Of a stretch of 64,000 nt of DNA, positions 16,004 through 63,200 are shown piece by piece (the first letter of the stretch is position 1; each line of letters starts with the position of its first letter). Made by a program: the position numbers and the translations under genes. The notes under the pieces are model-generated. The model was not told where the DNA came from, searched no databases, and was given only the letters and a program-made list of their open reading frames with translations. The DNA comes from Tubulanus polymorphus. Taxonomy: Eukaryota; Nemertea; Palaeonemertea; Tubulaniformes; Tubulanidae. Location: NCBI RefSeq assembly GCF_964204645.1, contig NC_134026.1:248001-312000 (forward strand). Direction: 5' to 3'.

Positions 16004-17157
16004 CTATGACAAAAAATAAAATAAAACAGATTTCGGTTGGTGATATTATAGTCAGACGCGAAGGTCCTATCTTATGTTTCTTCGGTTGTATCTAAAACGA
16101 TATCTATCAAAATTAGTAAAAATTAGCCATTCGATTTTTGTTTATAGAAATGAAAATACCTCCGAATCCTCATTAGAAATATGCTTCATAAATGCTGAAC
16201 ATTGTTTTCCGGTGCATAGATTCGTTATATAGATATCAAGTATCATAAACTCATAAAATCATTAACTATAACTCTCAGCCGAACGACATATCAATGTATA
16301 TATGTGTTGCGTGCGCGGTCCTCTTAACTACAAACAGGCCTACTCTAGTTTCTTTATGTTGTATATCTTGAAAAGAATCCTTACAAAGAAATATTCCGTA
16401 CAAAACAAAAACCGGGTATAAAATAAGATATACGTATTAAATAACGGAATACATTTGGCCCGATTCGTGTGAATTCTAGCCACAAAAGTTGTTACAGAAT
16501 GACTTACGTGAATAAGCCTTATTCTATAGCTACCGTTTTATAAACAACACCAGTTCGAGCATAATAACTCATAGAAAACCACTGAAAATCTTTTTCTGAA
16601 GTTTAACTTTTTTTGTCTGTATCAGAAACCTAATTCTACGATCGATATCAGCCCACTATGTCAATAATACATATTCAAATGTCAAATAACGGATGACTTT
16701 CAATCGAGAGAGAGTGGTTCATATCATGAGTGAAAATATTGAATAAATAAAGTTAAGAATTGACTGAAACAGGTTCTGATAATTTTTATCTATTTAGAAT
16801 CGAGCGCTGGTTCGAAAAAAACACAACTGTTGAACAAGTTCTATTTATAATTTCTCCATGCGTCATCTTTTGAAAGAAAGTGCTTGTGCGGCCATATCGT
16901 ATGAAATTTAATGTGTTTGGCTTAAGGCAAATTTTACTCGTTATTTTTTCCCGTCATTTCGAAAATATTGATAATAGAATTATGTTCCACGTACCTGTTA
17001 TAAAACATCGCCTTATTCACACTAATCCTTCCACCTTCATCTTAATTCGAGGATTTCTCATTGAATATTCGTCGAGAATGTTTTATAAGTAAATACGATA
17101 GTTATAAGACGAGTGTGTATATGTATGTGTGTAGGTGAGGTGACTTCACCAATGACC
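16004..17157. other. No exon recognised; probably intron or intergenic
   Basis: This lies between the exon at 15873-16003 and the repeats at 17158. It probably includes an intron of that minus-strand gene. No coding segment or repeat was identified. Confidence 0.4.
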
Positions 17158-17370
17158 AGTCATTAGCTTACAGTACTCTATAGTTTACCGTCGTTAGACC
17201 AATTCAGTTTAATAGCAATAACACTATTACACACAGTAAGTCTCCGTTCCGTGACAACACAGTTCAAGAAACTAATGCTCTTTTATATTTGAACCCAGGT
17301 ATATGCCTTATTTTTGTGGTCGGTTGGAACTTAAAAGTATTCATTCTGCGAGTTTAGATTGAACATAATT
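17158..17370. repeat. Dispersed repeat, copy A
   Basis: This stretch matches 26352-26545 in the same orientation. Shared blocks include AGTCATTAGCTTACAGTACT at the left, CTCTTTTATATTTGAACCCA in the middle and CTTAAAAGTATTCATTCTGC near the right end, with indels between them. The type of element is unknown. The second copy sits directly upstream of carnosine-synthase copy 1. Confidence 0.8.
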
Positions 17371-18190: not shown

Positions 18191-18224
18191 ACCTGCTTAT
18201 AGATTCAGCAATGATGTAATAGAT

Positions 18225-18830
18225 CAGCTGGACGGTGGCGCTGGTCTGGAGGGACAGTCTGTTAACTGCAGTGTTCAGCTGGACGGTGTCGATGGTCTGG
18301 AGGGACAGTCTGTTAACCGCAGTGTTCAGCTGGACGGTGGCGCTGGTCTGGAGGGACAGTCTGTTAACTGCAGTGTTCAGCTGGACGGTGTCGATGGTCT
18401 GGAGGGACAGTCTGTTAACTGCAGTGTTCAGCTGGACGGTGTCGATGGTCTGGAGGGACAGTCTGTTAACTGCAGTGTTCAGCTGGACGGTGTCGATGGA
18501 CTGGAGGGACAGTGTCTGTTAACTGCAGTGTTCAGCTGGACGGTGTCGATGGTTTGGAGGGACAGTCTGTTAACTGCAGTGTTCAGCTGGACGGTGTCGA
18601 TGGTCTGGAGGGACAGTCTGTTAACTGCAGTGTTCAGCTGGACGGTGTCGATGGTCTGGAGGGACAGTCTGTTAACTGCAGTGTTCAGCTGGACGGTGTC
18701 GATGGTCTGGAGGGACAGTCTGTTAACCGCAGTGTTCAGCTGGACGGTGTCGATGGTCTGGAGGGACAGTCTGTTAACTGCAGTGTTCAGCTGGACGGTG
18801 TCGATGGTCTGGAGGGACAGTCTGTTAACC
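18225..18830. repeat. 51-bp minisatellite, about 12 units
   Basis: Twelve units begin CAGCTGGACGGTG and are 51 bases long. Units one and three read GGCGCTGG where the others read GTCGATGG, and the sixth carries a two-base insertion. Because 51 is a multiple of three, long frames run through the array on the plus strand (period LDGVDGLEGQSVNCSVQ). The two-base insertion shifts them, so I do not call them genes. On the minus strand each unit contains an in-frame TGA, and the right-hand unit supplies the stop of the frame at 18787-19521. Confidence 0.97.
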
Positions 18831-19521
18831 AGTGTTTAATACGAACATGAACCGGCAAACTTTTCGTATCGATTTCGCGTAGTATTTTTCTAACCATGGC
18901 AGGATGACGCACGTGATCATTGGCTCGTTCAGCGCGTTTTATTTCCAACTGCTGAAAGTCAAATAAAGCTCTACAATTCAGGGCGCTTTCTCTAACGGTC
19001 GTGGCGGCTGCACCCCCTCCCGCAGCGCCGCACGGCGGTGGTCTCACAGTCGTCCTATTCTGCGGTTTAGTCACCGCGAATTCCCCGGTCTGAGTCCCGT
19101 AACGTCGTAACGAATATCTCTGCGGCAACGAATGCAATAAAGGACATAAATTCGGCGTCTTCTTCGTCGACGTTTTATTATTGTTTATCGATGGATAATA
19201 TTTCCGTTTAGGTAACACGTGAGCGGCGTCAGTTTTCTGTAGTTTATTCGATGTCGAAGTCTCGTCGGATCTCGTTGCCGGTGAGACTGAAGACGGATTC
19301 GGCCGCGTGTTTAATTGTCCAGAAGCTAACCGGCCGTTTAAAGTCATCGCCTCGACGTTGAATGGGTTTATCGTAGTTTCCGGTGAGCCCCGTGAACGTA
19401 CAATCAGTCGGTTTGCAATCTGCTGACGAGCCTGTGATAACCGAGCGCTCTCCTGGCGGATGAAGGCCGGGATATCCCGGTCGTTTGGTCGGATAGTCAT
19501 CGAATGGATATCCTCGTTCAT
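18787..19521 (-). CDS. Unrecognised 244-residue protein ending in minisatellite
   Basis: An open frame of 244 codons starts at an ATG in a fair context (AAAATGA). There is an in-frame stop 45 bases upstream and an acceptor-like TTTTATAG just before that, so this could be the first coding exon after a 5' untranslated intron. The product is basic and Ser/Thr/Pro/Arg-rich, with a Gly-Ala run in the middle and a more ordered, possibly helical C-terminal part (MVRKILREIDTKSL and flanks). I recognise no family. The final residues (LTDCPSRPSTPSS) and the TGA stop come from the last unit of the 51-bp minisatellite, so the natural 3' end may have been replaced, or a splice donor before it may be missed. 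It could be a 5' exon of the gene at 13783-16003. Confidence 0.55.
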   Translation of the reverse strand: MNEDIHSMTIRPNDRDIPAFIRQESARLSQARQQIANRLIVRSRGSPETTINPFNVEAMTLNGRLASGQLNTRPNPSSVSPATRSDETSTSNKLQKTDAAHVLPKRKYYPSINNNKTSTKKTPNLCPLLHSLPQRYSLRRYGTQTGEFAVTKPQNRTTVRPPPCGAAGGGAAATTVRESALNCRALFDFQQLEIKRAERANDHVRHPAMVRKILREIDTKSLPVHVRIKHWLTDCPSRPSTPSS

Positions 19522-20071: not shown

Positions 20072-23000
20072 GAATGCGGCGCATGTCGTGAGTGAACTGA
20101 TGATATCTATTTCATAGCAGTTTGAAGTATTCTCATTACGGACATCAATTTGAAGTATTTTATTGGTTTTTCAATGATGAGAAGTTCGAGACTCGACATG
20201 TGAATTACTATTTGAAACATGTCGCGAGGTCATGGGAAAAACTACGAGTAATAAATAATTCAAACTCGTTCACACGATACATGACGATACATGACGATTA
20301 CCAGTAGGAGACAAGATTGAAGCTGCTGCAAATTGAAATTCTTTCTTTTACAAATGATCGAATTGCAAGATAGACTGAAAATAACTGAAGCAATCTAAGT
20401 GAGAACAGTGAACTATTTCATTGAATGATTCTCTTCAGGTCGAGTGCGGAACTGAAACATGGAACTGAAATCTGCTCTCAACATTCGGAAATCGACTGAA
20501 TGAATGAATTATTTTTGGGTGAATCTCTAGAGAGCTTCTATATATATATATAGTGTGTCATTGAGAAATTTGAAAATGATTATACCTTATAACACTTTTA
20601 GTAATGACTTCACCGAGAACTGCCGAACTATGGGTTCAGATTGAACCCACAGTTGAGTAACGATTAAGACAAAGCATTTTCTTAATTTGAACCTACCGCA
20701 TTTTTCGAAATATTACACTTCCAAAACCCCCGAGCTGTACGGGAATGACGGCACATTGCATTCTGTTTAATCGCGTATCCAACTGGTGGTTACCACTAAA
20801 CAGCAGTGTATCAAAGTCCAGAACTGGTTTAGTTAATTACATCTGTAACTAGTGACATCGCGTGCTATTGGCTTCATTATAATAAAACTCGACACGAAAT
20901 TCGAGTCACCAACTCTGAATGATTGTGTATAGAACACACTATGAATCTCATAAACACTTCGTTCAACTAACGCGGATTATTTTCGTGTAGCTATAATAAA
21001 TATAAGTTGACAGTGCGTGAATCTGAAAATGTCAGCCATAAAACAACACGTAAAACCGGTCTCTTTCCAGTGTATTAAAACACAAATTAAGTCTATACAT
21101 TTTTCGGATTATTGTGAATTTTTTGTGAACTCTATATAAACCGTCTCACAGTTGGGTTCGGTTATGTGGTGCGTCAAGAATACTATTTATCTGCTTTATT
21201 CCTCCGTAGTGTAACTCAAACATCGACAGACGATCCTGTCGCAAACAAAAGTTACTTTCAAATTCTTCTACTTTTGTGCTCATTTTCTTACATTATAAGA
21301 ACGATAGAATAAGATTACCGTACAAATTTTTGGAAAAATATACTTAGGCGAAACCAAACGACGACCCGACTTTCTACTTATTGGAAAAAGATGCGCCGCG
21401 TATTATGAAAATAGCGATTGTTCTCCAAAAGTTCGCATTCACCGAAAAATGGAATAAATCGCTTCGGTTTTGATCGAGTTCATGTATCGTACATTTTACG
21501 GCTTATGAATAGATTTGTTTAATGCGACAGTAAAATATTCTTTTAAATTCATTCATTTCTTGCCGAAAGTGTGTATTCAAAACCGGCTCATAAGTTGATC
21601 GGCTTTAAACCGCGATGTAAGAAAATCCAATGCAAATAAAGTCGTCGGTGTTAAATATAATTGAAAATTACACGGAATTATGTGAAACATTTAGGCGTCC
21701 AATATTTTCACACGAAAAAGAAGTTAACACTATGGAGCGAGCAAAACAATATTCACCCGATAATAGTGCAACCGTCAGCTAGCGCCCTCTGTGTCGCAGT
21801 GATAAATGTTGTATGTAACTGCGTCTGTGATTGGCGGCACTGCTCTGCCAATCACAGATAACTTCCGGGTTATGGTTGAATATTTGTCCACCCTCGAGCT
21901 CTGTGTCTGTCATCTCGGGAGTTGAAGAAGCTAATGCTTTTCAAACCTGTGGCGACAAATTCGAAGACACCGGTTTTTTTCCGTGTAATAGGGTTATAGT
22001 TAGGTTAAGTCATTAGAGATTCATTGGGGACATATTCATCCATTTGGGATACCTAAACTCCAGTCGCGCCCTGATTTTGGTCCTTAAACTGCCGGATGTT
22101 CCGGGCGTCCTATATTCATGAAACATGTTGTCCGGTTTAGTTGTCGTTGTCGCGTGACGGAGGCGTCAGAAGTCAACCAGGGATTGCAGAGCTAAGCCAT
22201 CGATTTAAATGTTACAACATTTATTATCACATATAACACAAAACACAAAGCGTATATAACAGGTATTAAATAATTTTCTGACGGAATCAAGTGAATCCAG
22301 GAAACCAATTTGATACTGCGTATATATCATGACATTTGACTTCGTAGACTAGCTGCAACTCTATGAAATCCCTGGGGCGAATCGAATTCCCAGAGCAAAT
22401 CCTAGAGGAGAACTATATACAACTGGGAACTGTGAGCGAGTAATAACCGTAAATAGCCAGTTCTAAATTGAATAGTTCTGAATACAAAAATTATCCTCTT
22501 TATGTATTTTTGATACAACCTAATACAATATGAAATCCAAATCCATATCAAATCTATATACATGAAAACATTAGACACACTTAAATAAAACAAACACATC
22601 AAACAAATTTAACACCACACATAAAGACAAAAAGGATTCAATCGCCAACAGTCGTCATGTCGACGTCACGAATGTTGTTCGTCAATCGAGGTTTAGCGCC
22701 GGCAGCGAAATGAAAATATTGAAATACTATCTTATAGAAAAGGAACAATGATTAAAGTCGGATTTCGTTGATGGATTTTCTGTGTTATGGCGCTGATTTT
22801 TCACTGTCATTCGAGTCAACTTTATTGATGTCTATGAGATTGCATTCAGTGTATCATAGATACCGCATCGTATTGAGGATCACTATTCACAAGCTTCAAT
22901 TAGCATATGACAGCTATTAATGAAATAACTTTTGAAAAAAATAATTCATATCTCCGGGAACCGCTGCGAGAGTCGTTGTCGTTTTGAATTTTATTTCGAC

Positions 23001-23130
23001 AATTCGACTTTTATTTAATGATGAAGCACAAGTTATAAGCAACCAAGGTTAAAAAAGAGTAAAAAGAGAAAAGAGTAAAAAGACTAAGAAAGGGAGGCTG
23101 GAAATATAAAATCATTTCACCAGCTTTTGC
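20072..23130. other. No gene recognised
   Basis: Only frames below 70 codons are present. No element, exon or domain was identified. The last few hundred bases are the presumed 3' flank of carnosine-synthase copy 1. Confidence 0.45.
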
Positions 23131-26100
23131 TCAATCACGGACTATTGGAAAGTCAGTAAACTTTTTAACGTCGTATTCTTTGTTTGAGATTCCAAACCGT
23201 TCGCAAAGTTTCAACAATTTTTCTTTCGCTTCTTCTAAATTATCAGTTTTAACGCCTAAATGACAAATCGGTCTTTCTGTATCAGTATCGACAACATCAT
23301 TAGCTGTACAGCATTGAATTAGGCTGAACTGAATTTCACCAGATTTGCACAATTCATTGATTTCATCAATTCGATTCCAAATATGAGAGTGAACTGATTG
23401 TAAACAAATAACACCTACGAGTTGTCCACTAGGGGCAGGTTTGTAGATGTGAGGCTTCACTGCGCACGCGCACATGAACACACATCTCAGTAAATCAACT
23501 CTGTAACATTCCTTTATCCAATCCCTCACGTAAAATCCTGCCATTCGAGCATTTATTTCGATCAGTTTCGGTCCTAATGATGTCATCATGAACCCTACGC
23601 TAGAACTTCCACTAGTCAAACCTATTGTCAAACAGCATTGGTAAGCAGCGGAGATCAGCTGTGTTATCTTATCTGGAGGTAAGCATGATGGCATACATGC
23701 TCCCGTTTCAACGCAACTTCCGTCTCTAGTTGGACCAAGGTCAGACAGAAACGCTGCGATCAACTGACGTTTATACATAACTATATCCACATTGTGTTCC
23801 GTTCCTTCTAGAAACGGCATCATCATCATACTAGTTCCAAAACTTATCCCAATTCCAGGTAAATCTTCTTCTGAGCTCAGTTTCTTTTGTACAAGATTGA
23901 AATAAGTTTTAGATTCGTTTTTATTTTGAACGCGTTTAGCTCCTACTGAAGCTGCTCCGAATTCACGTTTGATGATACAAGGAAACGACATTGAAGCCTC
24001 GTCTATGTCACGTTCGGTTTCTATTTCGACGCTTTTTTCGGCGTAAATTCGCGCTTGAGGAAAATGTTTATATTCGCTACGACTTTGGAAAAGAGTTTTT
24101 TGTGTCGATGATTTTTTCTTAGCGATTCTACAACCATTCAGACCGGAACCGTTCAGAGATAACAACTCACAAATGTGAGCGCACAAACGAATGCAGTCTT
24201 CCCAGATTGTACAACAACCATCTATTTTTAGACGACAATTAGCGAGTATTTTGCTGATATTGATGGCGTGTTGCTCGTCTCGAGTGTGATCCGTAAAGTC
24301 ATAATCGATAAATCGGGTTACATCTGGAATGTCATGTGACTTGCGGTCAACAAGAATGATCTAAAACATAGAAGGTACCAGTGTATATTAATCCATTAAT
24401 GAAGGTATTTATACTAGAAAACCTCATTTGAAATATATTATGCGTGGATCTGCTTTTACCTTTAAATTATCTTGTTTAGCTGCAGCCCACATGAATGCTT
24501 TACTTGGACCTCCTTTCGCTATCACAACTATCACTTTACCCCACATCGTATATAGTTGAGATCTTTCACACATCCTCTCAACCAATGGAATCACTGATGT
24601 TCCTGGATTCAGGTCGGTAGATGCACGTAATGGATCGCTGACCAAACTCTTTAAACAGCTTTTAACCCCGATCCCGATAGGACAGTAGCGACCATCGCGT
24701 TTTACCAAGATGAAGTCAGCAGCTACAAAAACAATACACAATTCAAACCTTTGTCTAAATGAAATACACATATAATAAAATGGCTTTAGTGTTTCTTACC
24801 TATAAAATCTGTTTGTGTTTGGTCATTTTCATTATTATTCTCCTGTTTAATTATCTCTCGTAGCAAGTTTTCCGAGTCGTTTTTCAGTTGTTTTTTAATT
24901 CTATCTATTTCTGATGTTTCTACACCCCACTGTAGTAGAGTCGTTTCTATCGATTGTGCTGTTGTATTATCGCTGGTGATTGGCTCGTTTATGCGACCGA
25001 CTCTACATATGAAACCCGTGGCGATTGGTTGATCACAGTGCCCTCTACATGCGATAACTCGAACTCGGAAAGATAGATTATTTACTCCATCAGCTGCTGA
25101 AAGGAATTTCATTTATTGAACTTCTAAAAGCTTATAATCCATAAATCATTTACATGTTCATTCGACATACCTGTTGGACCTGGTTGATAGAATCGTTCTA
25201 TTAATACATAATCTCCCGGCTCAGACCGCGACAGTAAAGTGACAGCCTTGTTACAGATATTGTCCTGATCAGAATCACTATGGATAGAAACTTGTTCCTT
25301 GTGACCCGTTGCTATTCCGAATTTTCTCACCGAAATCTTTGTTAAAAAAATTCAGAAAAATCTCCTATAGAATTCACCAATACATCGATAAATTTAGAAC
25401 GTCTAGATACGACAGAAATTACCTTGTCATTCGAGGAATCGAGATGTTGCAGAAATCTTCGTATATTTTCACTAACCACATTCTTCAAGTCAGTTTTTAT
25501 ATCTATTTCCTGTATCTCTACACAAACATCTCCCGGTATATCGTATTTATGAGGAACGTAGTTACATAATGCTAATGATTCAGGGCAACTAATTCCTGCT
25601 TTACACATTAAAATACGTGTCCAAATCTTGTCATCTAGTTTCCTATTGATCGAACTCGATGTCGGACAATCTAAATCATACTTGAAATCTGCAATTCCCG
25701 GTTCATCGTCGCTAAAATTATTCATCAAATAAGTCACCCTCCTCGGTGGATCGAATACATCGAGAAAACTCGCACCGCCGTTGTACATCGATATCGCTTT
25801 ATGCAGCAAGATCGTCTTTAACGCAGGATTTCGATCACTTAGTTTTATTGACAGCCAAGAAGTCGATAAAACGAGATGTACATTACCCGCACATGATTGG
25901 CCACCTTGCAGTAGTACAGGCATACATTCGACGGGTGATGATAGAATAACGATATTTATACCTGTTTCTGGTAGTTTTGTTCTGGGTATTATCGTACGAT
26001 CCTCAGTTTCTGGATGGTTTGTTTCATACAGCGTGTATTGTAGAATGTTATAATAGTGTTTAACACGTTGTCTTTCATCATCAGACATTCGCTGCTGATC

Positions 26101-26172
26101 GGAATTTAAAGATTCGAGATTCACATCCTGGTTCCATTCGCAGTAAGGTATTTCATTCAGCGCTGAAGACAT
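23131..26172 (-). CDS. CARNS1: Carnosine synthase-like ATP-grasp enzyme, copy 1
   Basis: Carnosine synthase joins beta-alanine (or a related amino acid) to histidine using ATP. Exons are 26172-25423, 25336-25171, 25096-24800, 24722-24460 and 24360-23131. Each boundary is GT-AG and the phases agree, giving 901 residues, close to the vertebrate enzymes. The ATP-grasp module lies in the last exon: CIIKREFGAASVG near residues 620-632 and GPKLIEINARMAGFY at 755-769. Intron 1 is only 86 bases. The copy is over 95% identical to copy 2 in most exons. Two patches differ sharply: residues 701-716 keep a family-like ETGACMPS, while 741-753 read SGSSSVGFMMTS where copy 2 has SGVFNVDIVLTS, and the later GG pair is AG. 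That patch normally contributes acidic residues, so activity may be altered. The family call is sure; the substrate is not. Confidence 0.93.
23140..26155 (-). repeat. Left arm of the inverted gene duplication
   Basis: This is the inverted counterpart of about 30880-33960. Homology covers the coding exons and introns and fades at the start codon on one side and just before the stop codon on the other. Introns 1, 3 and 4 remain alignable, with a 15-base indel in intron 3. Intron 2 (25097-25170, 74 bases) is largely unrelated to its 133-base counterpart at 31867-31999. Confidence 0.93.
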
Positions 26173-26204
26173 TTCGATGTTTGATTTGAACAGATTGATG
26201 CAGA

Positions 26205-26330
26205 TACTATAATGGTCGTTGATGTAAGAAACTCACTCACAGCGGTCGTGATCTTTCAGCTGAACTTTACTAACTGTCATTAACAGTCACCACGCAGATC
26301 CTTAAGTCTGATTAAGGTCTTTTGAAAAAA
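26205..26330 (-). promoter_or_regulatory. Upstream block of synthase copy 1, repeated at 29474-29605
   Basis: About 125 bases immediately upstream of copy 1 recur in the same orientation at 29474-29605 with roughly 90% identity. The block contains the inverted pair ACTGT CATTA ACAGT. It should hold the promoter or 5' untranslated region of copy 1. No TATA box is obvious. Copy 2 does not have this sequence upstream of its first exon. Confidence 0.55.
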
Positions 26331-26351
26331 GTTATTGAATCATCTCACTTC

Positions 26352-26545
26352 AGTCATTAGCTTACAGTACTCTAAAGTTTACCGTCTTTTTTACACGGTT
26401 TGCTTCCCTTCCGTGACCACACATTTCATTAAAGATAAAGCTCTTTTATATTTGAACCCAGACACATATTATATATTCTATATTATTTTCGAGGTTGTCT
26501 GGAACTTAAAAGTATTCATTCTGCAAGGTTAGATAGAACATAATT
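26352..26545. repeat. Dispersed repeat, copy B
   Basis: This is the second copy of the repeat at 17158-17370, in the same orientation and about 190 bases long. It stands directly beyond the upstream block of synthase copy 1. Confidence 0.8.
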
Positions 26546-26580
26546 ATATGTATATTGTATTTATTTCGTCAAAGTCATTT

Positions 26581-27047
26581 GGGGAGCGTTCTAATAGTAC
26601 GTACGACCTTAGGGGGAGTGGGGTAAAGAAATAATGTACTAACTTCGTATGGGGAGAGAGAGGTGGGGGTTAAAGAATAATGTACGTACTTTTCTGGTAG
26701 GGGGGTCTCTCAAACAAATGTACGTACTTAATGGACGAGAGATATCCAAAATTACGTCAAACATATGTCTGAGACAAAATGAATTACTGTTAACCGATCC
26801 TTATCTCATGAAATCCTTAGTTAATACTAGCCTATATAGTAAGTGAAGTGAAGGCAGGTCAAAAGTGCTATTAAGTTGGATTAAGTGTCATGTTATGTCT
26901 AATTTGTTGATTTGAGGGAGAGGGGTCTTTCAAAATGTACGTACGGGTCGGGGGTGGGGGTTAATGAAATAAGTACCAAGATCGTACAAGGCGGGGGGGG
27001 TCTAAAAAACGGTAAAACTGGCTGTAAGTACTATTTTAACGCTCCCT
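26581..27047. mobile_element. TIR element with G-rich interior
   Basis: The left end GGGAGCGTTCTAATAGTAC and the complement of the right end (GGGAGCGTTAAAATAGTAC) match over about 28 bases with a few changes. The 466-base interior has no frame of interest. It is built from several G-rich tracts (GGGGGAGTGGGG, GGGGGTC) alternating with the palindromic word GTACGTAC. It is a non-autonomous DNA transposon; the superfamily was not identified. It lies in the spacer between the two synthase genes. Confidence 0.7.
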
Positions 27048-27119
27048 ATAATACTTGTATATGACAATCTTTCATTGATTTTACAGTTGGCGTTTTTCCT
27101 CGAAATATACAGACATATC

Positions 27120-27578
27120 TTTTACATTTAAGTTACCCTAGGAAGGAATTTCCGTCCCTTAAACGTCTGTAAAAGGAATTTTGCAATGCGCTTTAAGAGA
27201 TTGTTGGAGGTTGTGTTCATCAAATCTATGAATTTATAATGCTCGGATTATTCCAATAGTATCGGGGAATGAAATTGCTTCTCGGGGTGTTATAGTGGAT
27301 ACAGCATAGTAAAACGTGGTACTCGTCTTCGATTTGATTCGGGTTACAGCTACACAAAAGGTTTTCGCGTGGGATCCGTGGCCTGGTCCATCTACCACTT
27401 TCTATCATAAGGTCGTAGCTTCCACAGCGGGATTTACTGAAAGTATTTACTAAACAAGGGTCACTAATATCAAGTAATCTCTCGTAGGTAAAAGAAGATT
27501 TTAGGTGCTTATAGATATAACATTTGCGGCTAGTTTCAATAGAGTGAAACCAGTTGATCCGCAGCTGAATTGTACTTT
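27120..27578 (-). pseudogene. Non-LTR retrotransposon ORF2 C-terminal tail, broken
   Basis: Read on the minus strand, this encodes the tail found after the reverse transcriptase in many LINEs. The order is NWFHSIETSRKCYIYKHL, then ESGRW, the cysteine cluster CSCN...IEDEYHVLLCC, and KFIDLMNTTSNN with LLKRIAKFLLQTFK. The last part is one frame away from the first because of a single-base shift at about 27235. The rest of the element is missing here. A further ORF2 piece on the same strand lies at 29240-29440, so both may derive from one LINE split by later insertions. Confidence 0.8.
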
Positions 27579-28396
27579 ACAGTTGCGTTTAGGCGTAGGC
27601 CTGGAGATGTATGTATCAGTGTTTTGTTAGTAATGCAGTCAGCCAGTGTTAATGGTGTTGTCCCTCTTGCGAAAATCGTTATACTCACGGACTTGTGATA
27701 ACTCCTTGGGGACAAAACACCTGGCTGCATGCAAGAAATCGTGAAATTCGCCGACGACATTTGCGTTAAACCGATCTAAATGGCGGATGTATGAACTCGA
27801 TGTTCCAGCGCGCCGTATTCAGCTTCGTTGTGGTATTTTCAACTCGTATGTTGCGATATAAACTGTGGAGAAGTTATAGACTCCTGTATCGTAAATCTGG
27901 TTCTACGTTGAAGCCATTGATATTGCGTGTTTTCGCGCTGGATGGTGTATTATTAGGCTGCGAGGAACTGCGTTGGATAACGTCATTCGTCCGTCCATGG
28001 CGTACTGTGTTGTTGTGGTTGCTGTTGAGTCTTCATGCGGTATATTTTCAAACTTCGTAATTGCGGTGGTGTTAAGTGCTAGACTTTTTACGGTATTAGC
28101 GGAGGCAGCGGTCTCAAGATACTTTCATTTTCCGAGCGGGTATCCTGAACTTTAATTTGTGGTTTTGTTGAACTGTAATCCTGAACTTTTAGTGCGTGTT
28201 ATTACTATGAACTTTAACGAGTAGTTTTAGAATATGGTCTAGTTAATATCTTTGGGGAAAAAGACGCGATTTGGCGTTTTTCATCCGTTTGTTGCTGTTT
28301 TCTTTTTCAGGGTTTTTCATGAGGTGTCGGCTTGTGTTTCAGAGGTTGTCTAAATTCAAAATTTCGGGACGAAATTTTAAGCTGAGTGGGGAGTGA
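27579..28396. other. 818-bp segment bounded by a 24-bp direct repeat
   Basis: The 24 bases at 27555-27578 (core GATCCGCAGCTGAATTG) recur exactly at 28397-28420. The first copy is part of the LINE tail. The segment between has somewhat higher GC, no recognised domain and a plus-strand frame of 89 codons. It may be an insertion with a long target-site duplication, or the trace of a local rearrangement. Confidence 0.4.
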
Positions 28397-28420
28397 TGAT
28401 CCGCAGCTGAATTGTACTTT

Positions 28421-29239
28421 CAAAAAGATCAAACGATTAATATACGTAGGTTTCTTGGCATGTCCTGGGAGAACACACGCATTGTTCCTTATGTACGATA
28501 ATACATTATCCGCCTTAATGGTTGTTTGTCTGAAACATTTATACTTGTATCAGACGAGCATTCTAAATCACTTTGAAGGTAATCACGGGGCTGTAGTCAT
28601 GAGAAGAATTCGTGGAAATGAGCAATTATGAAATCAACTTATGAAACACTCGCTGACCCTTAGTCTGATAATTCGATAATAAGGAGTTATATTAAAGAGT
28701 AATATTAAAAAGTAATATTAAAGAGTTTTATTATTTTAATTGATAAGGGTTTGTGTGTTTAAATTTGAATGTACTAATAATGTTAAAGAATATAAATAAG
28801 AAAGATGATATTTCGGCTTACATTGTATACTACTATTTAGACAAAATTAAATACCATTCATTGTGGGAATTGTAATCATTGGATTAGTTAAAATAAATGA
28901 GTTCGAGGGTTGGAAAAATAGTATATATGTAATCTCTTCGGTGCGGTTGAGAAGGAGAGCAGACCGGCAGGTATCCTGACGTCGAGGGTCGGGTTAAAGT
29001 TAGCAGCGAATGAAAAGTCTAGGAATCAGGACCCCAGCTCTGCGTCGTGGTGCTGCGTTGGTTGCTCGTTCCCTTTTACGGCTGGCCGCAAGCAGGGTTC
29101 TGGATTTTTCTTGGGTGTGGACGCAGCCGTATAAAAGGGGCCGCACCTCGAGAGAGAGCGGACTCTTTTAGAAAGCATTCGACTTTCTCGCCAGGGACCG
29201 GAGTTTGTAATAGAGGAAAAAGACAATAGAGAAAGGGAC
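28421..29239. other. Spacer without recognised feature
   Basis: This part of the spacer between the synthase genes is partly very AT-rich (28650-28930), then more GC-rich. No gene or element was identified. Confidence 0.4.
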
Positions 29240-29440
29240 CGCGGAACACAGTTTTGGATAAATATTGATCTTTGAGTCTTTGCTCGACAAGTTTTATAGG
29301 AAAGGTGGCATTTCCTGCATCCTGGGAAATCCAAAAATGACCAAGACCTAAATCATTAAATAAATCACGCATTTTGGATGCCCAATTAGATATGAGAGGG
29401 TTGTTATTCATCTGATTCAGGAGATGAATGACCCAGAAAT
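29240..29440 (-). pseudogene. Non-LTR retrotransposon ORF2 fragment
   Basis: The minus strand reads MNNNPLISNWASKMRDLF, then NDLGLGHFWISQDAGN and KLVEQRLKDQYLS. This matches the segment that precedes the C-terminal tail in LINE ORF2 proteins (NWA..., LG...W, RLKD motifs). The frame after KDQYLS no longer resembles the family. It is a truncated relic, probably of the same LINE as 27120-27578. Confidence 0.65.
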
Positions 29441-29449
29441 GCCACTAGT

Positions 29450-29605
29450 CATAACCTATTGTCAAACGACACTTTTTGTTGCATGGTCGTTGATGTAAGA
29501 AACTCACTCACATCGGTCGTGATATTTCAGCTGAACTTTAGAAACTGTCATTAACAGTCACCACGCAGATACTTCAAACTGCTTCAGTCTTGTGAGAAAG
29601 AATTA
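29450..29605 (-). pseudogene. Truncated third synthase copy (exon scrap joined to promoter)
   Basis: At 29451-29477 the sequence CCACTAGTCA, one extra T, then AACCTATTGTCAAAC matches the last exon of synthase copy 1 (23606-23634, same orientation). It is followed within about 15 bases by the upstream block of copy 1 (29474-29605, matching 26205-26330). The 2.6 kb of gene that should lie between is gone. This is an internally deleted relic and cannot encode protein. Confidence 0.65.
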
Positions 29606-29989
29606 TTGAATTACCTCAAATACACTTAAGGTTTGTCATTAATTTTTCTTCTACTCAAAATATCTACTTAAAACCTACGTTGCGATTGTCTACTTGAAAA
29701 GGGAATTGAACTTATAATCGCTTTGATCGATATTTTGGATAGTTAGTGTTCATTGGAATAAAAAAGTTTTTGGTGAAGAGAGTTTGTGAAATGAGCGCTT
29801 GTTAAAAAGTTATATTGAAAGTTCACTGTTTTTTTTTTGAGCATGTAATCGTTGACTTGTTCAGTAGGTACAAGGTTCCATTGACATCAAAACACGCGAG
29901 AGTTGTATATAAGCTCGGCGTGCTGATACTGCAAGATTTAGTGTCAGTAAAAAGCCGATAAGTTGTGACCAATTATTTATATCTTCATA

Positions 29990-30085
29990 TAAAGTTATAT
30001 GATCCTTCCACGCCGGGATTCGAACCCGGTGGCATCGCGACCATACCGTATCGCTATAGGAAACCATGCGTAAAGCCCCAGCACA
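29990..30085 (-). repeat. tRNA-like sequence (SINE or pseudo-tRNA)
   Basis: On the minus strand, GCGATGCCACCGGGTTCGAA continues into TCCCGGCGTGG, a good TpsiC arm and B box. It is preceded by a plausible anticodon-arm region (GATACGGTATGGTCGC). The acceptor ends do not pair well, so it is not a functional tRNA gene. A tRNA-derived SINE head is the likeliest reading. Confidence 0.5.
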
Positions 30086-30550
30086 CATTTATTTGCACAA
30101 CTGCTGCCCAGATTTCCATGATTCAAATCATTTCGAATTCGATAATGAACCAAAATATATTGCAAAACAGTATTCGTAAATAAATATGATTCCTCTTTAT
30201 GCCGGGAGAGGCAGCTATAAAACAATACATTGAAAAGAAATTTATTGCTTTTATCGGAATTAGAATCTTAAGTAGAAAAGACAAAATTCCGTGTTTAAAT
30301 TTCAAAATATCGATTTACACGGTTTGCTGCTTGCTGAAAGCTGTTTTAACATAAATTTTTACTGCTTTAGCATAAAACTCAACAAATCCATAGGTCATCA
30401 AGACTTTCCCTTCGACACCTGCCGCCACTGTGATCGATAATTCCTATACTGCCATCGCTGACAAGCATTATGTGAAATACTGTAAGATCCGGTGACGTGT
30501 TAACTACAGATGTTTATCAACTGTAAGTGCCTGATAGTGTCATTAGAAAT

Positions 30551-33500
30551 ATGGATGGTAATCGTTTAGATCAGTCTCAGGAGGTAAGTATCAGAGGCAA
30601 ATCGTGTAACATGTCGTGTTCCAAACCTCAAAGCCCATATGGCATTAGTCATGATTAGTCATATCCATTAATGCATGTACAAAAAAATGCGTACATAAAG
30701 TTTAATTTGTTTGGATTTCGGCGGCTCTTAATTTTTGATTACCGGGATATTTGACCACCGAGCACCACTCAGTCCAAGGGCCTTTCTCCTATTTTAGGGA
30801 AATTCATACTCGAAAATCATATCTGTATCTTATTTAGAATAAATGGGAAATAATCAAGACTTGTGAAGATGCCACCCTGAATGGAATCCCTTACTGCGAA
30901 TGGAACCAGGATGTGAATCTCGAATCTTTAAATTCCGATCAGCAGCGAATGTCTGATGATGAAAGACAACGTGTTAAACACTATTATAACATTCTACAAT
31001 ACACGCTGTATGAAACAAACCATCCAGAAACTGAGGATCGTACGATAATACCCAGAACAAAACTACCAGAAACAGGTATAAATATCGTTATTCTATCATC
31101 ACCCGTCGAATGTATGCCTGTACTACTGCAAGGTGGCCAATCATGTGCGGGTAATGTACATCTCGTTTTATCGACTTCTTGGCTGTCAATAAAACAAAGT
31201 GATCGAAATCCTGCGTTAAAGACGATCTTGCTGCATAAAGCGATATCGATGTACAACGGCGGTGCGAGTTTTCTCGATGTATTCGATCCACCGAGGAGGG
31301 TGACTTATTTGATGAATAATTTTAGCGACGATGAACCGGGAATTGCAGATTTCAAGTATGATTTAGATTGTCCGACATCGAGTTCGATCAATAGGAAACT
31401 AGATGACAAGATTTGGACACGTATTTTAATGTGTAAAGCAGGAATAAGTTGCCCTGAAACATTAGCATTATGTAACTACGTTCCTCATAGATACGATATA
31501 CCGGGAGATGTTTGTGTAGAGATACAGGAAATAGATATAAAAACTGACTTGAAGAATGTGGTTAGTGAAAATATACGAAGATTTCTGCAACATCTCGATT
31601 CCTCGAATGACAAGGTAATTTCTGTCGTATCTAGACGTTCTAAATTTATCGATGAATTGCTGAATTCTATAGGAGATTTTTCTGAATTTTTTTAACAAAG
31701 ATTTCGGTGAGAAAATTCGGAATAGCAACGGGTCACAAGGAACAAGTTTCTATCCACAACGGTTCTGATCAGGAGAATATCTGTAACAAGGCTGTCACTT
31801 TACTGTCGCGGTCTGAGCCGGGAGATTATGTATTAATAGAACGATTCTACAACACACATCAGACTGGTATGTCGAATACATGCATTACGTTGCTTATAGG
31901 CTTTATTATAGGCACATCATATATCCATAATCATTCACTGTAGTGTTATGAAGAGTATTGACTTATGATTTGTTGACGTGTGATTTGTTGATTTTGTAGC
32001 AGCTGCAGGACGGAATCATCTGTCTTTCCGAGTTCGAGTTATCGCGTGTAGAGGGCGCTGTGATCAACCAATCACCACAGGTTTCATATGTAGAGTCGGT
32101 CGCATAAACGAGCCAATCACCAGCGATAATACAACAGCACAGTCGATAGAAACGACTCTACTACAGTGGGGTGTAGAAACATCAGAAATAGATAGAATTA
32201 AAAAGCAACTGAAAAACGATTCGGAAAACTTGCTACACGAGATAATTAAACAGGAGAATAATAATGAAAATGACCAAACACAAACAGATTTTATAGGTAA
32301 GAAACACTAAAGCCATTTTATTATATGAGTATAAATCAGCCCTACTTCATTTAAAGACAAAGGTTTGAATTGTGTATTGTTTTTGTAGCTGCTGACTTCA
32401 TCTTGGTAAAACGCGATGGTCGCTACTGTCCTATCGGGATCGGGGTTAAAAGCTGTTTAAAGAGTTTGGTCAGCGATCCATTACGTGCATCTACCGACCT
32501 GAATCCAGGAACATCAGTGATTCCATTGGTTGAGAGGATGTGTGAAAGATCTCAACTATATACGATGTGGGGTAAAGTGATAGTTGTGATAGCGAAAGGA
32601 GGTCCAAGTAAAGCATTCATGTGGGCTGCAGCTAAACAAGATAATTTAAAGGTAAAAGCAGATCCACGCATAATATATTTCAAATGAGGTTTTCTAGTAT
32701 AAATACCTTCATTAATGGATTAATATACACTGGTACCTTCTACGTTTTAGATCATTCTTGTTGACCGCAAGTCACGTGACATTCCAGATGTAACCCGATT
32801 TATCGATTATGACTTTACGGATCACACTCGAGACGAGCAACACGCCATCAATATCAGCAAAATACTCGCTAATTGTCGTCTAAAAATAGATGGTTGTTGT
32901 ACAATCTGGGAAGACTGCATTCGTTTGTGCGCTCACATTTGTGAGTTGTTATCTCTGAACGGTTCCGGTCTGAATGGTTGTAGAATCGCTAAGAAAAAAT
33001 CATCGACACAAAAAACTCTTTTCCAAAGTCGTAACGAATATAAACATTTTCCTCAAGCGCGAATTTACGCCGAAAAAAGCGTCGAAATAGAAACCGATCG
33101 TGACATAGACGAGGCTTCAATGTCGTTTCCTTGTATCATCAAACGTGAATTCGGAGCCGCTGCAGTAGGAGCTAAACGCGTTCAAAATAAAAACGAATCT
33201 AAAACTTATTTCAATCTTGTACAAAAGAAACTGAGCTCAGAAGATGATTTACCTGGAATTGGGATAAGTTTTGGAACTAGTATGATGATGATGCCGTTTC
33301 TAGAAGGGTCTCGACATGGAGTTGATATAGTTATGTATAAACGTCAGTTGATCGCAGCGTTTCTGTCTGACCTTGGTCCAACTAGGGAAGGGTATCTAAC
33401 GGGAACTGGGGTTACGATGCCATCATGCTTACCTCCAGATAAAATAACACAGCTGATCTCCGCTGCTTATCAATGTTGTTTGACAATAGGTTTGACTAGT

Positions 33501-33974
33501 GGTGTTTTTAATGTCGACATTGTGCTGACATCGATGGGTCCGAAACTGATCGAAATAAATGCTCGAATGGGAGGATTTTACGTGAGGAATTGGATAAAGG
33601 AATGTTACAGAGTTGATTTACTGAGATGTGTGTTCATGTGCGCCTGCGCAGTGAAGCCTCACATCTACAAACCTGCCCCTAGTGGACAACTCGTAGGTGT
33701 TACTTGCTTACAATCAGTTCACGCTCATATTTGGAATCGAATTGATGAAATCAATGAATTGTGCAAATCTGGTGAAATTCAGTTCAGCCTAATTCAATGC
33801 TGTACAGCTGATGATGTTGTTGATACTGATACAGAAAGACCGATTTGTCATTTAGGCGTTAAAACTGATAATTTAGAAGAAGCGAAAGAAAAATTGTTGG
33901 AACTTTGCGAACGGTTTGGAATCTCAAACAAAGAATACGACGTTAAAAAGTTTATTGATTTTCCCCAAGTCTAA
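30551..33974 (+). CDS. CARNS1: Carnosine synthase-like ATP-grasp enzyme, copy 2
   Basis: This is the head-to-head partner of copy 1. Exons are 30838-31614, 31701-31866, 32000-32296, 32389-32651 and 32751-33974, with the same intron phases and exon lengths as copy 1 where comparable. No ATG matches the copy 1 start, because the region was altered (in copy 2 the aligned ATG at 30869 runs into TGA). A 33-base exon at 30551-30583 has ATG and a strong GAG/GTAAGT donor. It splices in phase to the acceptor at 30837 and gives a 919-residue protein beginning MDGNRLDQSQ. The ATP-grasp motifs are intact here (VFNVDIVLTS, GPKLIEINARMGGFY). In contrast, the patch ETGACMPS of copy 1 reads GTGVTMPS. The last residues (FPQV) also differ. 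The first exon is an inference; the rest is firm. Confidence 0.88.
30880..33960 (+). repeat. Right arm of the inverted gene duplication
   Basis: This is the counterpart of 23140-26155 in opposite orientation. Neither flank is shared with the left arm, so the homologous block coincides almost exactly with the coding region plus introns. Confidence 0.93.
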
Positions 33975-34897: not shown

Positions 34898-35060
34898 CAG
34901 GACCCGTTTCCACGGTAGTGAGTTTAGAGTTGGCGCTTTAGTTAACGTTACCTCAGAATCCAGCTCCTAATTGTGCGTTAGTTGTGAGTTAGAATCAGAT
35001 CATTTTCAATTCTTAACTCTAGATTCGAATTAAACTCAGACTCGTGGAACTGGATCCTGA
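34898..35060. mobile_element. Foldback element, CAGGACCCGTTTCCAC type
   Basis: The left end CAGGACCCGTTTCCACG is an inverted match to the right end CGTGGAACTGGATCCTG, and matching continues inward (GAGTTTAGAG against the complement of the right side). It is about 163 bases and non-coding. Related ends occur at 39685-39771 and 59981-60098. Confidence 0.65.
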
Positions 35061-37208
35061 ACTGATATTCTACTTCATTTCAAACAACTGCGGCATCAGA
35101 ACAATGAATATACACGATTTGATGTCTCATTATTCATTTTCTATATATAAAAGTTACAAATACATTAATATTTTCAATTATCGTTTGAAGACACCTTTAA
35201 AAATGAAATGATATCTCGATTATAAAGTGAATATTTATCATCGCACACATCAAGAGTCAATTAGAGTCATCTGTGTGATGCGCGATAGCATTTTTATTTT
35301 ACGGAAAATAATTACAGCCAAAATGATCGAACTGTGAATGTGACAGCTTGCCACACGAAATGGACATCTATTTTACCATTATATTCATTGGTGAACTGTT
35401 TATTGGTGTAGTGCGTCCCATTATTAAAACTTGTTCATCGTGTAGATCATTACAAACGACATTTCATGCCATCTTCTTTTGTGTGCATAAACAGCAGCAG
35501 CAATATAATATATACATTTATCTTAAACGTCGAGGCCGACCGAACACTGACTCATCGCCGGACCCAGTTATATCTGGCGTTGATTATGAAACCTATTTTC
35601 TAATTTTCTAATTAAAAATCCAGACTTTCTTTTCTGGAACCTATTACGACGACGTGTTGCAGATTTTTACGCAAATCGTATTATAAAATAGTATATATAA
35701 TCTTACAGCGCAGAAATCGATGCCTTAGAAAATCCATTGAAAAGCCACATTATGTGGAAGGAACAGCTTTATTCTGGAATTAAATAATAACCCTGTCGTG
35801 TAACATATGTCATCCAATACCCAATTATCTAAAGTTCTATAGTCCATCGCATCGCGGCGACTGATCGTAAATTTATCTTTATCTGAGGCAACAACAACAG
35901 CTCTGCGCGAGGCGGGATCTATTTAATTCTTGTTATAAGGATTTATAAATTCACGCACAGATTTCTTTAAGACTATTACTAGCGCTTTAAACCTAAAACA
36001 CTTAAACCTTCTTTATCAGATTAGAGGAATCAAGTTGTAATGCGATAATCCTCTTATAGTCCGATAACGGGTATTATTTTAATTAATACATTCGTGTTAA
36101 ATCGTCTTGAAATTTGCAACGTAAAAGTTAAAAATTGTTTGATCATAAAAACAATTCTAAACCGAGTTACGAGTTAGGACCTCCTATGCAACCAGTTTTC
36201 CACGGATCTGAATCCTAAATACGATTTAAAAGGCTTAGATTGATCATTAAGTGAGGATAGCTCGATCTTCACATAAGTCACGATTGTAGAAGGGTGAGAC
36301 GATTGCTATAGTAATGATTACACAAATACTATGGAAATTAATTTCGTTCTAAGAGTCCACGGTTTGAATGAGTATGAAATGGCAGAAACTAATTCGGTCT
36401 CGTGCAACTTACTACAAAGACATATACGATAGAAATGTGTTTTGCAGACGACTTTCATAGAGAATTGCGACGACAAGATGCGTGATTTTAACTACGACAT
36501 ATGCCGTCAATAATTTATGGTCTATTAGGTATTATAGAATTTTCTATACGCAGATGTTCCGTTTTACCTATAGAAAAACAATTCAGATTTCCTATTGAAT
36601 TCCGGGACTGGGGACTGTGTCAATGTAATATTGTGAATCAATGTGATTGATGATTCGTTAATTACTTACACTCGATTCAAGTAGAGAAAACCACACGTTT
36701 TTTGCACGCGTTTATTATTCAGCTTTTGCGTCACTGTTTTATCGACAACTTTCAAAAGCTGATGTTACAATTTCTTCAACTATGATTGTTCGTATTCGAT
36801 TTATACATGTATTATATAATGTACCGTACTTACATTGTGCTTGATCCAATTTCACTAGTTGTGGCTTAGAATATGAAACTATTATGAAATTATAAATATG
36901 AATTCATTTTCATTTCAAATAACATTACAATACTTAGATACGTTAGATTACATTAAATATGCATTTAATTAGGCATACAAAGTTGCATGTAGTTTGACTG
37001 TTTAGAATGAAGATTAGTTAAATTCTAATGCGTTACTCGATTCAAACGTTTACTGAGAACTGTGGAACTGGGCTCTGGAATCGCTCTCTACTTGTTAGCC
37101 TTAAAGAGATGTAGACATTCGACAATTAAGGCAATTTTGTAGATTATGACTGCATTTGAGTTCTTCGCCTTCGCCTTGAGGTTATTCAAGGACGGTTCTA
37201 TGCATGTA

Positions 37209-60268: not shown

Positions 60269-63200
60269 TTAACACTCAGTGTTGTTGTCAGTCAGACTAG
60301 ATTCTGTATTGCGATCATTATCACTCCTCGTTGCTGCTGTCTCCTCTCCCTCTCTTTGTCCTTGTTGTTCTTCCTCTTCGGGTTTAGGTTCCGGACGAAC
60401 TTCGTCAGTAGCCAACTCGACGGCTGCGCCATCTGGCGGATTTCCCGCGTCGGGGATATTCGACAGAAATGTGAACTGCGTCACGACGGAGAGTTGACTG
60501 CCGTGAAGCATGGCTTCTTCAATCGCCTGCTCGTAAGTGGGAGGAGGGGTCATTCTCCTGCCGCGGCGGAAGTTAGGCGGACCAGCCGGAAATATGGTCC
60601 GGTAACTCGGTGGGCGGCCGAATCGAGAGAAAAACGCCGACAGGGACGAATCGCGTCTGTTTCGGCGACCGCGATGACTGACATTCTCGGATATAGTTTC
60701 TAAATGATTAGTACTCGCGTATTGGTCATCATCACGTGGTCTAGTGTTTGGTGAACGGGTGCGATATATAGCCACACTTATACCTACTATAATCGCCATA
60801 CACACCACACATCCTGTAACACCTCCCGCTATTTTGATCGTACTGTCATTGGGTTTACCTGCGAAATAAAACAATGCTGTATGAAATAAGTATCGAAAAC
60901 AATTTACAGAATCTAAAAATTACGCCACCCTAACCCTTCAATATTTCTGGAATTTTTTTCAGCTTCTTAAATGAAGCCCACTTGACCATTTTGAATGTAA
61001 AACAAAATTTCCAATTGTATTTTTATAAAATGATATTCAAATTATTTGTGAAAATATCTAGTAGTTACAGAGATACGATCAAAGCTATCCAGGCTCCAGT
61101 TTCACGAAACTCATTTTTTTAAATTTTATTGCTATTGTTTACTTGATATCGTCAATGAGGACAACGGTTCAAACTTAACTGATTAAAGCTTTAAACTTGT
61201 TCATGAAACTGGACTCAGGGCCCGGTTGCACGTTTGCGACTAAGCCCAAAAGTAGTCTTAAGTTTAGACTTCCTAAATGATATTTATAATCAAGATGGTC
61301 TCAGACTGGTCTTCAATCTAAGACATGCCTGTACAACATGAGCTGTATCAATAAACATTATACCTTTATCATTTGTACCAGAGCCTGATTTATCTTCATC
61401 TGTACAGTCTTTATTGAAGGGCGATTCGTCAGTTTTATCTCCACAGTCATTAGTTCCGTCGCAGACTAAACTCTGGAAGACGCACTTGCCGTTATGACAT
61501 CGGTAGAAGTGAGAATTCGGGCAGGGTGGATAGGCTATCGTGAATAGAAAGCAAAAACTTGGTTTTTATCGAAGTGATTTAGATAAACATTAAGCCTTGC
61601 GACCGCCTGTACGTTCGTCGCAGACTCGCCGCCCTACGCGCCCATGGGACTATACCAGTGACGCCAGTTGCAACAAGCTTTGCATGTTCTCAATGTTTTA
61701 CTTTCGGCGACGCGACCTTTTCTCTTTTTAGTCACAACCCTGATAGACGCTGCTTTTGCAAAAGACAAACACAGTGTCACGAGCGACAGACACGCCCTTG
61801 CATCAGAGGAATCCATTTGGGTTCAGTTGCCATGGACCGCATCGCATCAACCCACACCCGCCCTCTATACATGAATGCATGGTGGCGTCGCAAGTCAACC
61901 CATACCCGCCTTCTATACATGAATACATGGCAGTGGCGGATTTAGCCTACCGCACTTGCCGCTAATGCGGTAGTCAACATTTTTCCTCTAACAACATTTT
62001 ATTTATTTCATGGATGGATTTGACTTAGCTGATTCCTTGGAAAAAGTACCCATATTAAAACAGGATTTAAAATCCCCCGTAGGCACGTCGTGCCTTCGGC
62101 ACTCGTATTGCACATCTCGTGCCTTCGGCACTCGGTTGCCGAAAATGCGGTAGTCATATTATGCTTCTGGATCCACCACTGCATGGTGGCGTCGCAAGTC
62201 AACCCACACCCGCCCTCTATACATGAATACATGGTGACTGTACTGTAAGGGTTAACGATAATTCCTGCATCCCGCGGATTTCGACAGTTAATTTATGACG
62301 ATGAACAAAACGGATGTAAAATATATAGTCGCATGCGATGGTTGTACTTAATGGTAACTCACCGATGCCACTACAGGGGGCGTTGCGAATATGAATCTCA
62401 TCGAGACCTAAACCATATCTATTATACTTTTTGTATATCTGTCTAAGTTCGAACACAATCTGAAATATTAAATTGAAATCAACATTATATTTCAGTCTCT
62501 GAATAGTTACATTGACAAAATGTTGTGAAATACTGATGAAAAATAACTTAGTAAAGTTAAGACCCTCGAAAATGTTTCTACAAAACACACTTTTGATATT
62601 AGTTTATCGCTTGTTCGTGACGATAGAAAATATAAGTTTCCAAGAATTAGTTACCAGGAATTGATAAGCGGACGGTACAAAGCTGACAGAAACTTTAATC
62701 CAACGTGAATCACTGGAAGGTATTTTCCAATTTGTAAGAAATTTCAGCGACATTTTATCCGCATCATCGCCTCGTGAACCTTCATAGACGCTTAACTTAG
62801 TCATCTGATTTCGAATATTCGCATTCGTGAACCAAAAATCTAAACATTTCCAGCCTTTATCCCACGTACGGATGATCGGTGTACTGATGACAATTTCTCG
62901 GGGATAGGGACCCATCGTTAACAAATAATGACCCATCTTAGTACCATCTGTAAAATAACAAAACGAACATTAATCTTTTGGACGATTAACTATTTCTTAA
63001 GCCGGTAAATTCAACAAATATAGTTTCAGACTTTTTAGAGATTATGATCTATTTACATTAAGAGTGAACAAGGAAGTGGTTAGATTACGGTATGTCCTAT
63101 ATTTTCTTCATTATTTAAATCATGATTTCAAAAATGCTCTCTATCACGGGACTTTCCATATTTCCTTTATTATTTACATCATGATTTCAAAAATGCTCGC

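Follow-up and report, generated by a model that had tools for sequence, protein, structure and literature searches.

Two copies of a carnosine-synthase-like gene, A and B, stand head to head in this genome with coding sequences that are near-identical except in a few short patches, and the three patches of the last exon lie over predicted active-site stretches. An about even chance is given to the explanation that the two are old paralogues made alike by exchange, with selection holding the active-site patches different. Under this proposal, A and B would be two old head-to-head paralogues of a carnosine-synthase-like ligase of the ATP-grasp type, and gene conversion (non-reciprocal exchange) would have left most exonic sequence near-identical, along with three of the four introns that the copies share. 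The active-site stretches would have escaped overwriting, exchange there being selected against in copies that are functionally different. Copy B would have kept the acid of the metal site and lost two conserved glutamates, and copy A would have kept the glutamates and lost the acid. Conversion is thereby the presumed process, selection the presumed reason, and changed specificity or lost catalysis the presumed effect.

The window, i.e., the whole stretch of DNA analyzed, is 64,000 nucleotides long (G000:C2:248001-312000, from an assembly of 268 Mb in 77 contigs) and contains no N. The copies lie on opposed strands with their 5' ends facing across a spacer of 4.4 kb (Table 1). Their inverted arms (23147-26160 and 30877-33964) are 95.1% identical over 1,969 columns and 98.0% identical over 1,002 columns, and the inverted head-to-head pair described in a first-pass annotation is therefore real. 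That annotation saw two five-exon genes of about 900 residues, which fits copy A; in copy B a sixth exon is predicted. It also had the homology stop at the start and stop codons. The homology runs from A 26160/B 30877 to A 23147/B 33964 and is nearly coextensive with the coding region, but in copy B there is no in-frame ATG at its edge, and the frame starts at a splice acceptor at 30838. The predicted leader of copy B has 11 codons and is joined in phase 0 via GT-AG across a 254-bp intron. A short Met-led peptide similar to that of copy A is found at the start of the copies on contigs C10 and C6, so the leader of copy B looks like the newer state.

Table 1. Coordinates of the two gene copies, their patches, and related features, in window positions
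Feature	Position	Strand	Remarks
Copy A, carnosine-synthase-like (ATP-grasp) gene	23131-26172	-	901 aa, five coding exons; open frame joined at GT-AG introns
Copy A exons	26172-25423, 25336-25171, 25096-24800, 24722-24460, 24360-23131	-	GT-AG joins
Copy B	30551-33974	+	919 aa, six predicted coding exons; leader exon predicted from splice signals and phase only
Copy B predicted exons	30551-30583 (leader), 30838-31614, 31701-31866, 32000-32296, 32389-32651, 32751-33974	+	
A 3' flank, common to C11 copy	22511-23130	-	620 bp; G000:C11:9018213-9018802; 87.3% over 631 columns with gaps
A 5' flank piece	26212-26347	-	direct-orientation duplicate at 29483-29618, 88%
Spacer repeats	27226-29444	-	two open frames and a multi-copy repeat
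Spacer relic	29435-29618	-	33-bp last-exon piece (29435-29467, 91%) adjoining the copy of the A 5' flank
Patch 1	A 23788-23805	-	A GTEHNV, B GSRHGV (33306-33323); 6 of 6 codons differ
Patch 2	A 23695-23727	-	A RDGSCVETGAC, B REGYLTGTGVT (33384-33416); 11 of 11 codons differ
Patch 3	A 23572-23610	-	A GSSSVGFMMTSLG, B GVFNVDIVLTSMG (33501-33539); 12 of 13 codons differ
Patch 4, copy B odd	31848-32022	+	exon 3 end (B YNTHQT, A YQPGPT), whole of intron 3, and exon 4 start
Smaller exon 3 cluster	31755-31775	+	B HNGSDQE, A HSDSDQD; copy B odd at 4 of 5 differing bases

Most of the gene is very similar between the copies. The first exon was correctly called near-identical, as only 3 of 239 residues differ in the first homologous exon (732/738 bases identical); exon 5 is identical at 263/263 and the last exon at 1154/1224, with 10 gap columns. 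The three introns placed within the homology do belong there, with identities of 97.7-99.0% in ungapped columns (one of them with 15 gap columns). The remaining one, intron 3 (A 25170-25097/B 31867-31999), is not alignable (41/68, with 71 gap columns). In the alignment of the arms, A and B share no flanking sequence. The identity proved to be a mosaic, a feature that the first-pass annotation had missed: over three short runs in the last exon it drops to about 49%.

These runs, patches 1 to 3, hold 29 differing codons out of 30 (in runs of 6, 11, and 13), versus 22 out of 377 elsewhere in the last exon. The largest number of differing codons within 11 is 11, a value reached in 0 of 20,000 shuffles (best 8). 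At the nucleotide level the last-exon patches agree between A and B at 44/90 positions and contain no indels. The corresponding values against the distant paralogues are 40/90 (A with C8), 49/90 (A with C6), and 53/90 (A with C10), and 45 to 48/90 for copy B. The two copies are thus as different here as they are from paralogues that are 57-61% alike, though beyond the patch region the two match each other at 98% and C10 at 67%. Synonymous sites in the last-exon patches are no less altered than the others, with 18.7 differences at 22.7 sites, and dS is 0.92 in the exon 3/4 patches (21 codons, with the smaller exon 3 cluster pooled with patch 4) compared with 0.026 in the backbone (832 codons). 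Because the patches were marked out by the very differences being counted, this contrast between patch and backbone is inflated; the shuffle test and the all-site runs test described below are unaffected. With synonymous sites near saturation, the patches cannot be put down to recent change in a young duplicate; they must be older than the near-identity that surrounds them.

A search of the genome with the last exon of copy B found six family members, namely A (92%), B itself, and copies on contigs C11 (93%), C10 (61%), C8 (61%), and C6 (57%). The C11 copy, whose detectable homology starts within the first homologous exon (A 25611), is broken: exon 4 carries a 28-column insertion, exon 5 has a single-column gap, and the last exon has lost ten codons. 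It shares the 3' flank of copy A (471/500 ungapped columns in the tabulated stretch), and its intron 3 is of the A type (71/74), while its last-exon patches are of the B type (86/90). The odd copy is thus A in the last-exon runs, where B resembles C11, and B in patch 4, where A resembles C11. The start of exon 3 is common to A, B, and C11 (25336-25290/31701-31747) and reads ISVRKFGIATGHKEQ in A and B; at the same place C10, C6, and C8 have VKPI.NSY or IKPI.NSY, which suggests an old frame change in the clade of A, B, and C11.

Sites at which one of these three copies stands apart were scored over the 2,418 columns that they have in common, and they set apart C11 at 87 sites, B at 65, and A at 62. 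Along the gene they form 69 runs, against a shuffle mean of 142 and minimum of 117 (10,000 shuffles). The excess of clustering persists when intron 3 is left out (64 runs, mean 120), when the coding exons alone are scored (59 runs, mean 107), and when just the last exon is used (35 runs, mean 58), with 0 of 10,000 shuffles as low in each case. Neighboring segments of the gene have different histories and clearly different ages. Once the patches are removed, the clustering is weak (52 runs against a shuffle mean of 61, a count matched or undercut in 180 of 10,000 shuffles), and 83 of the 123 sites set C11 apart, the others 23 and 17. The mosaic is therefore carried by the patches, and the backbone has mostly one history, A and B versus C11. 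The first-pass annotation had proposed repeated gene conversion between the arms. Exchange is supported by the differing histories of the segments, but this last count is no good indication that it was repeated. The grounds for exchange between the copies, in segment histories and in the synonymous contrast, are stronger than those offered originally.

Patches older than the backbone identity leave two readings: the copies themselves are old and were homogenized outside the patches, or the patches were imported. Exchange between the copies probably best explains this contrast in age. Reading the pair as old paralogues made alike accounts for the match of 199/204 between A and B in the blocks separating the patches, where C11 reaches 189/204 with A and 192/204 with B. 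It also accounts for the end of homology at the borders of the gene, old paralogues having unrelated flanks. It needs no donor, and none was found: genome searches with the last-exon patch region and with the exon 3/4 patch returned three places and five pieces, respectively, all of them in A, B, or C11. Several points count against it. A single event would do, given a backbone with mostly one history; the two near-identical blocks that separate the last-exon patches measure no more than 60 and 84 bp, which is little for a conversion tract; and the evidence is drawn from one genome.

A recent inverted duplication is a serious if unlikely alternative. Segments would then have been imported from lost paralogues, into the last exon of copy A and, in copy B, into the stretch that spans exons 3 and 4 as well as into the two ends. 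The low backbone dS and the mostly single history of the backbone agree with it, and the weak clustering left after removal of the patches moves weight toward it and away from old paralogues made alike. The relic in the spacer, which is probably what remains of a further copy on the minus strand, likewise suggests that another copy once existed. Several imports into both copies are needed, however, some of only 18-39 bp and from donors that the searches of the assembly did not find. Moreover, copy B has neither the flanks nor the intron 3 of copy A, while C11 has both the 3' flank and the intron 3 of A.

It is rather unlikely that conversion was at work in a purely neutral way, where stretches that had become too different by chance escaped further conversion, without functional selection. 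Intron 3, with its large difference in length, is likewise unconverted; it is noncoding yet different, so a patch can be protected by heterology alone. According to the discussion in PMC3728101, conversion is reduced where differences are clustered. On the other side, the last-exon patches are free of indels and fall on normally conserved stretches, where drift should be slow.

The position of the patches favors selection. Pfam ATP-grasp_3 scores above the cut-off in the last exon of both copies, and ATP-grasp_4 does so in copy A only; as in CARNS1, BacD, and BL00235 there is an ATP-grasp domain, and in A and B it is located in the last exon. A profile built from the last exons of all six members matches BacD (3wnz, E 5e-14) and BL00235 (3vot, E 1.1e-11), and in the profile alignment patch 2 lies over FTETSH and patch 3 over THTE of BacD. 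BL00235, C10, C8, and C6 share the Glu of each of these stretches; the ETS and NVE columns have Glu in BacD and BL00235. The columns of the patches are if anything better conserved among C10, C8, and C6 (19/30 invariant, versus 187/360 elsewhere), as expected of an active site. We take the aligned conserved acidic residues to bind substrate and Mg2+, from structural work on BacD.

Copies A and B each lack some of the residues that BacD, BL00235, C10, C8, and C6 have. At the THTE column, an acidic residue is present in B (Asp), C11, C10, C8, and C6, and A has Gly. At the FTETSH column, Glu is present in A, C10, C8, and C6, and B and C11 have Gly. A Glu in patch 1 (A, C10, C8, C6, and BL00235) is Arg in B and C11, at a column that is less certain, as BacD has an insertion there. 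Columns held by the majority of paralogues are kept in patch 1 at 5/6 by A and 3/6 by B, in patch 2 at 5/10 by A and 2/10 by B, and in patch 3 at 7/12 by each copy, though at different ones. So both copies have departed from the pattern of the family, and at complementary places. Copy A may be catalytically weak, and copy B may be altered in specificity. The name carnosine synthase for A and B is a putative label, given by the first-pass annotation and based on motifs; carnosine synthase (CARNS1/ATPGD1) makes beta-alanyl-histidine.

According to passages of PMC6920838, Trp332 of BacD is a specificity residue and most ATP-grasp enzymes require Mg2+; the Glu residues of BacD are unnamed in the passages seen of PMC9321006, PMC12568646, PMC6920838, and PMC13338154. 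A search for bacterial relatives by sequence pattern matched 46 stretches, of which 0 were confirmed, and a structure prediction for the last exon from a two-sequence alignment was unusable (mean pLDDT 31). The exon 3/4 patch falls in the N-terminal half of the protein, whose large exon has no Pfam match. We do not propose that this patch marks the counterpart of the active site in a second ATP-grasp domain, as hhalign of the N-terminal against the ATP-grasp half found no internal repeat.

The same residues bear on the remaining alternatives. The first-pass annotation had also offered selection for two doses of one product, and both frames are open, but A and B diverge at places that line up with conserved catalytic residues of ATP-grasp ligases, which makes this very improbable; two enzymes kept different would fit better. 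A recent duplication followed by positive selection on the proteins, with no conversion involved, could draw on the 18 of 46 amino-acid differences that fall in the 30 last-exon patch codons and another 10 in the exon 3/4 patches, but it is already contradicted by the near-saturated synonymous sites of the patches and by the difference in intron 3, and it deserves almost no credence. An assembly artifact, from haplotypes or false duplication, is just as hard to credit, with B flanks for which genome searches gave no other place apart from a short dispersed repeat, no N in the window, patches that differ, and a third copy elsewhere with a mixed pattern.

The surroundings of the genes have their own history. 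The claim that neither flank is shared stands for A against B, as no common sequence was found between their flanks in the arm alignment. It does not stand for copy A more widely, given the 3' flank in common with C11 and the piece of its 5' flank that recurs in the spacer. Genome searches with the B flanks (E up to 1e-4) turned up no second copy, apart from a short dispersed repeat. Within the 3' flank of B, at 34940-35064, lies a dispersed repeat of about 80 bp with at least 34 other matches in the genome. In the spacer, the open frame at 27226-27576 has 150 scored matches among 660 candidates in the genome, and the multi-copy repeat at about 27575-28430 has five other near full-length places at 95-98%. 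The open frames at 27226-27576 and 29076-29444 have no Pfam match; we take them to be LINE-like. A 24-bp repeat around the spacer insert was considered as a target-site duplication and rejected, as copies elsewhere run across it.

Two pieces of the region upstream of A (26351-26545) recur in the same orientation at 17157-17370, one of 39 bp at 95% and one of 141 columns at 78%. A genome search with 26150-26560 gave, among the matches listed, four places, all on the contig of the window and within the window. Together with the spacer relic, these pieces indicate more rearrangement at the locus. Elsewhere in the window, a minisatellite at 18224-18836 (period 51, 12 copies, 96% matches) is open in several frames, and pieces of a gene on the minus strand at 61290-62969 include a domain of LDL-receptor class A, together with a MAM match that is weak and below the cut-off. 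Genes of this kind suggest that the DNA is from an animal.

Conversion with divergence kept at selected sites is already established. In the copepod Tigriopus californicus, the account in PMC3728101 has GOT1p1 and GOT1p2 as linked enzyme duplicates with islands of high divergence within coding sequence homogenized by conversion, along with chimeric haplotypes, and it gives a neutral alternative as well. The A/B locus is similar in its linked enzyme duplicates, its islands of divergence amid similar regions, and its chimeras. While the Tigriopus work covers several populations and an intronless pair, the pair described here is inverted and comes from one genome, and its patches span 6-13 codons, are synonymously near-saturated, and align with catalytic stretches. 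Human opsins, according to a review (PMC3924837), also combine conversion with divergence preserved at selected sites. As in that account, divergence peaks at functionally decisive sites and is low in the flanking introns, but altered function is known for the opsins and only predicted for A and B. The pair seems to add a new case to these, one whose patches are short, near-saturated, and placed over catalytic stretches. Among the titles listed in a literature search made without the species name, none described such a pair, which is no evidence of its being unpublished.

A more speculative extension, which we consider unlikely, is that the active site consists of exchangeable micro-cassettes, with a scaffold frozen by exchange in which A-type and B-type patches are kept and with the C11 copy as a natural chimera. 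Copy A might then be a pseudoenzyme or regulator and copy B a ligase of new specificity, the two forming a complementary pair. If A and B are indeed old paralogues made alike around patches that selection holds different, the pair itself would mark which residues matter: with all other differences wiped out by exchange, the surviving ones would be evolution's map of functional sites. How copies diverge under conversion could then be tested directly on single catalytic motifs, and the locus would supply two animal dipeptide ligases whose active-site losses are reciprocal.
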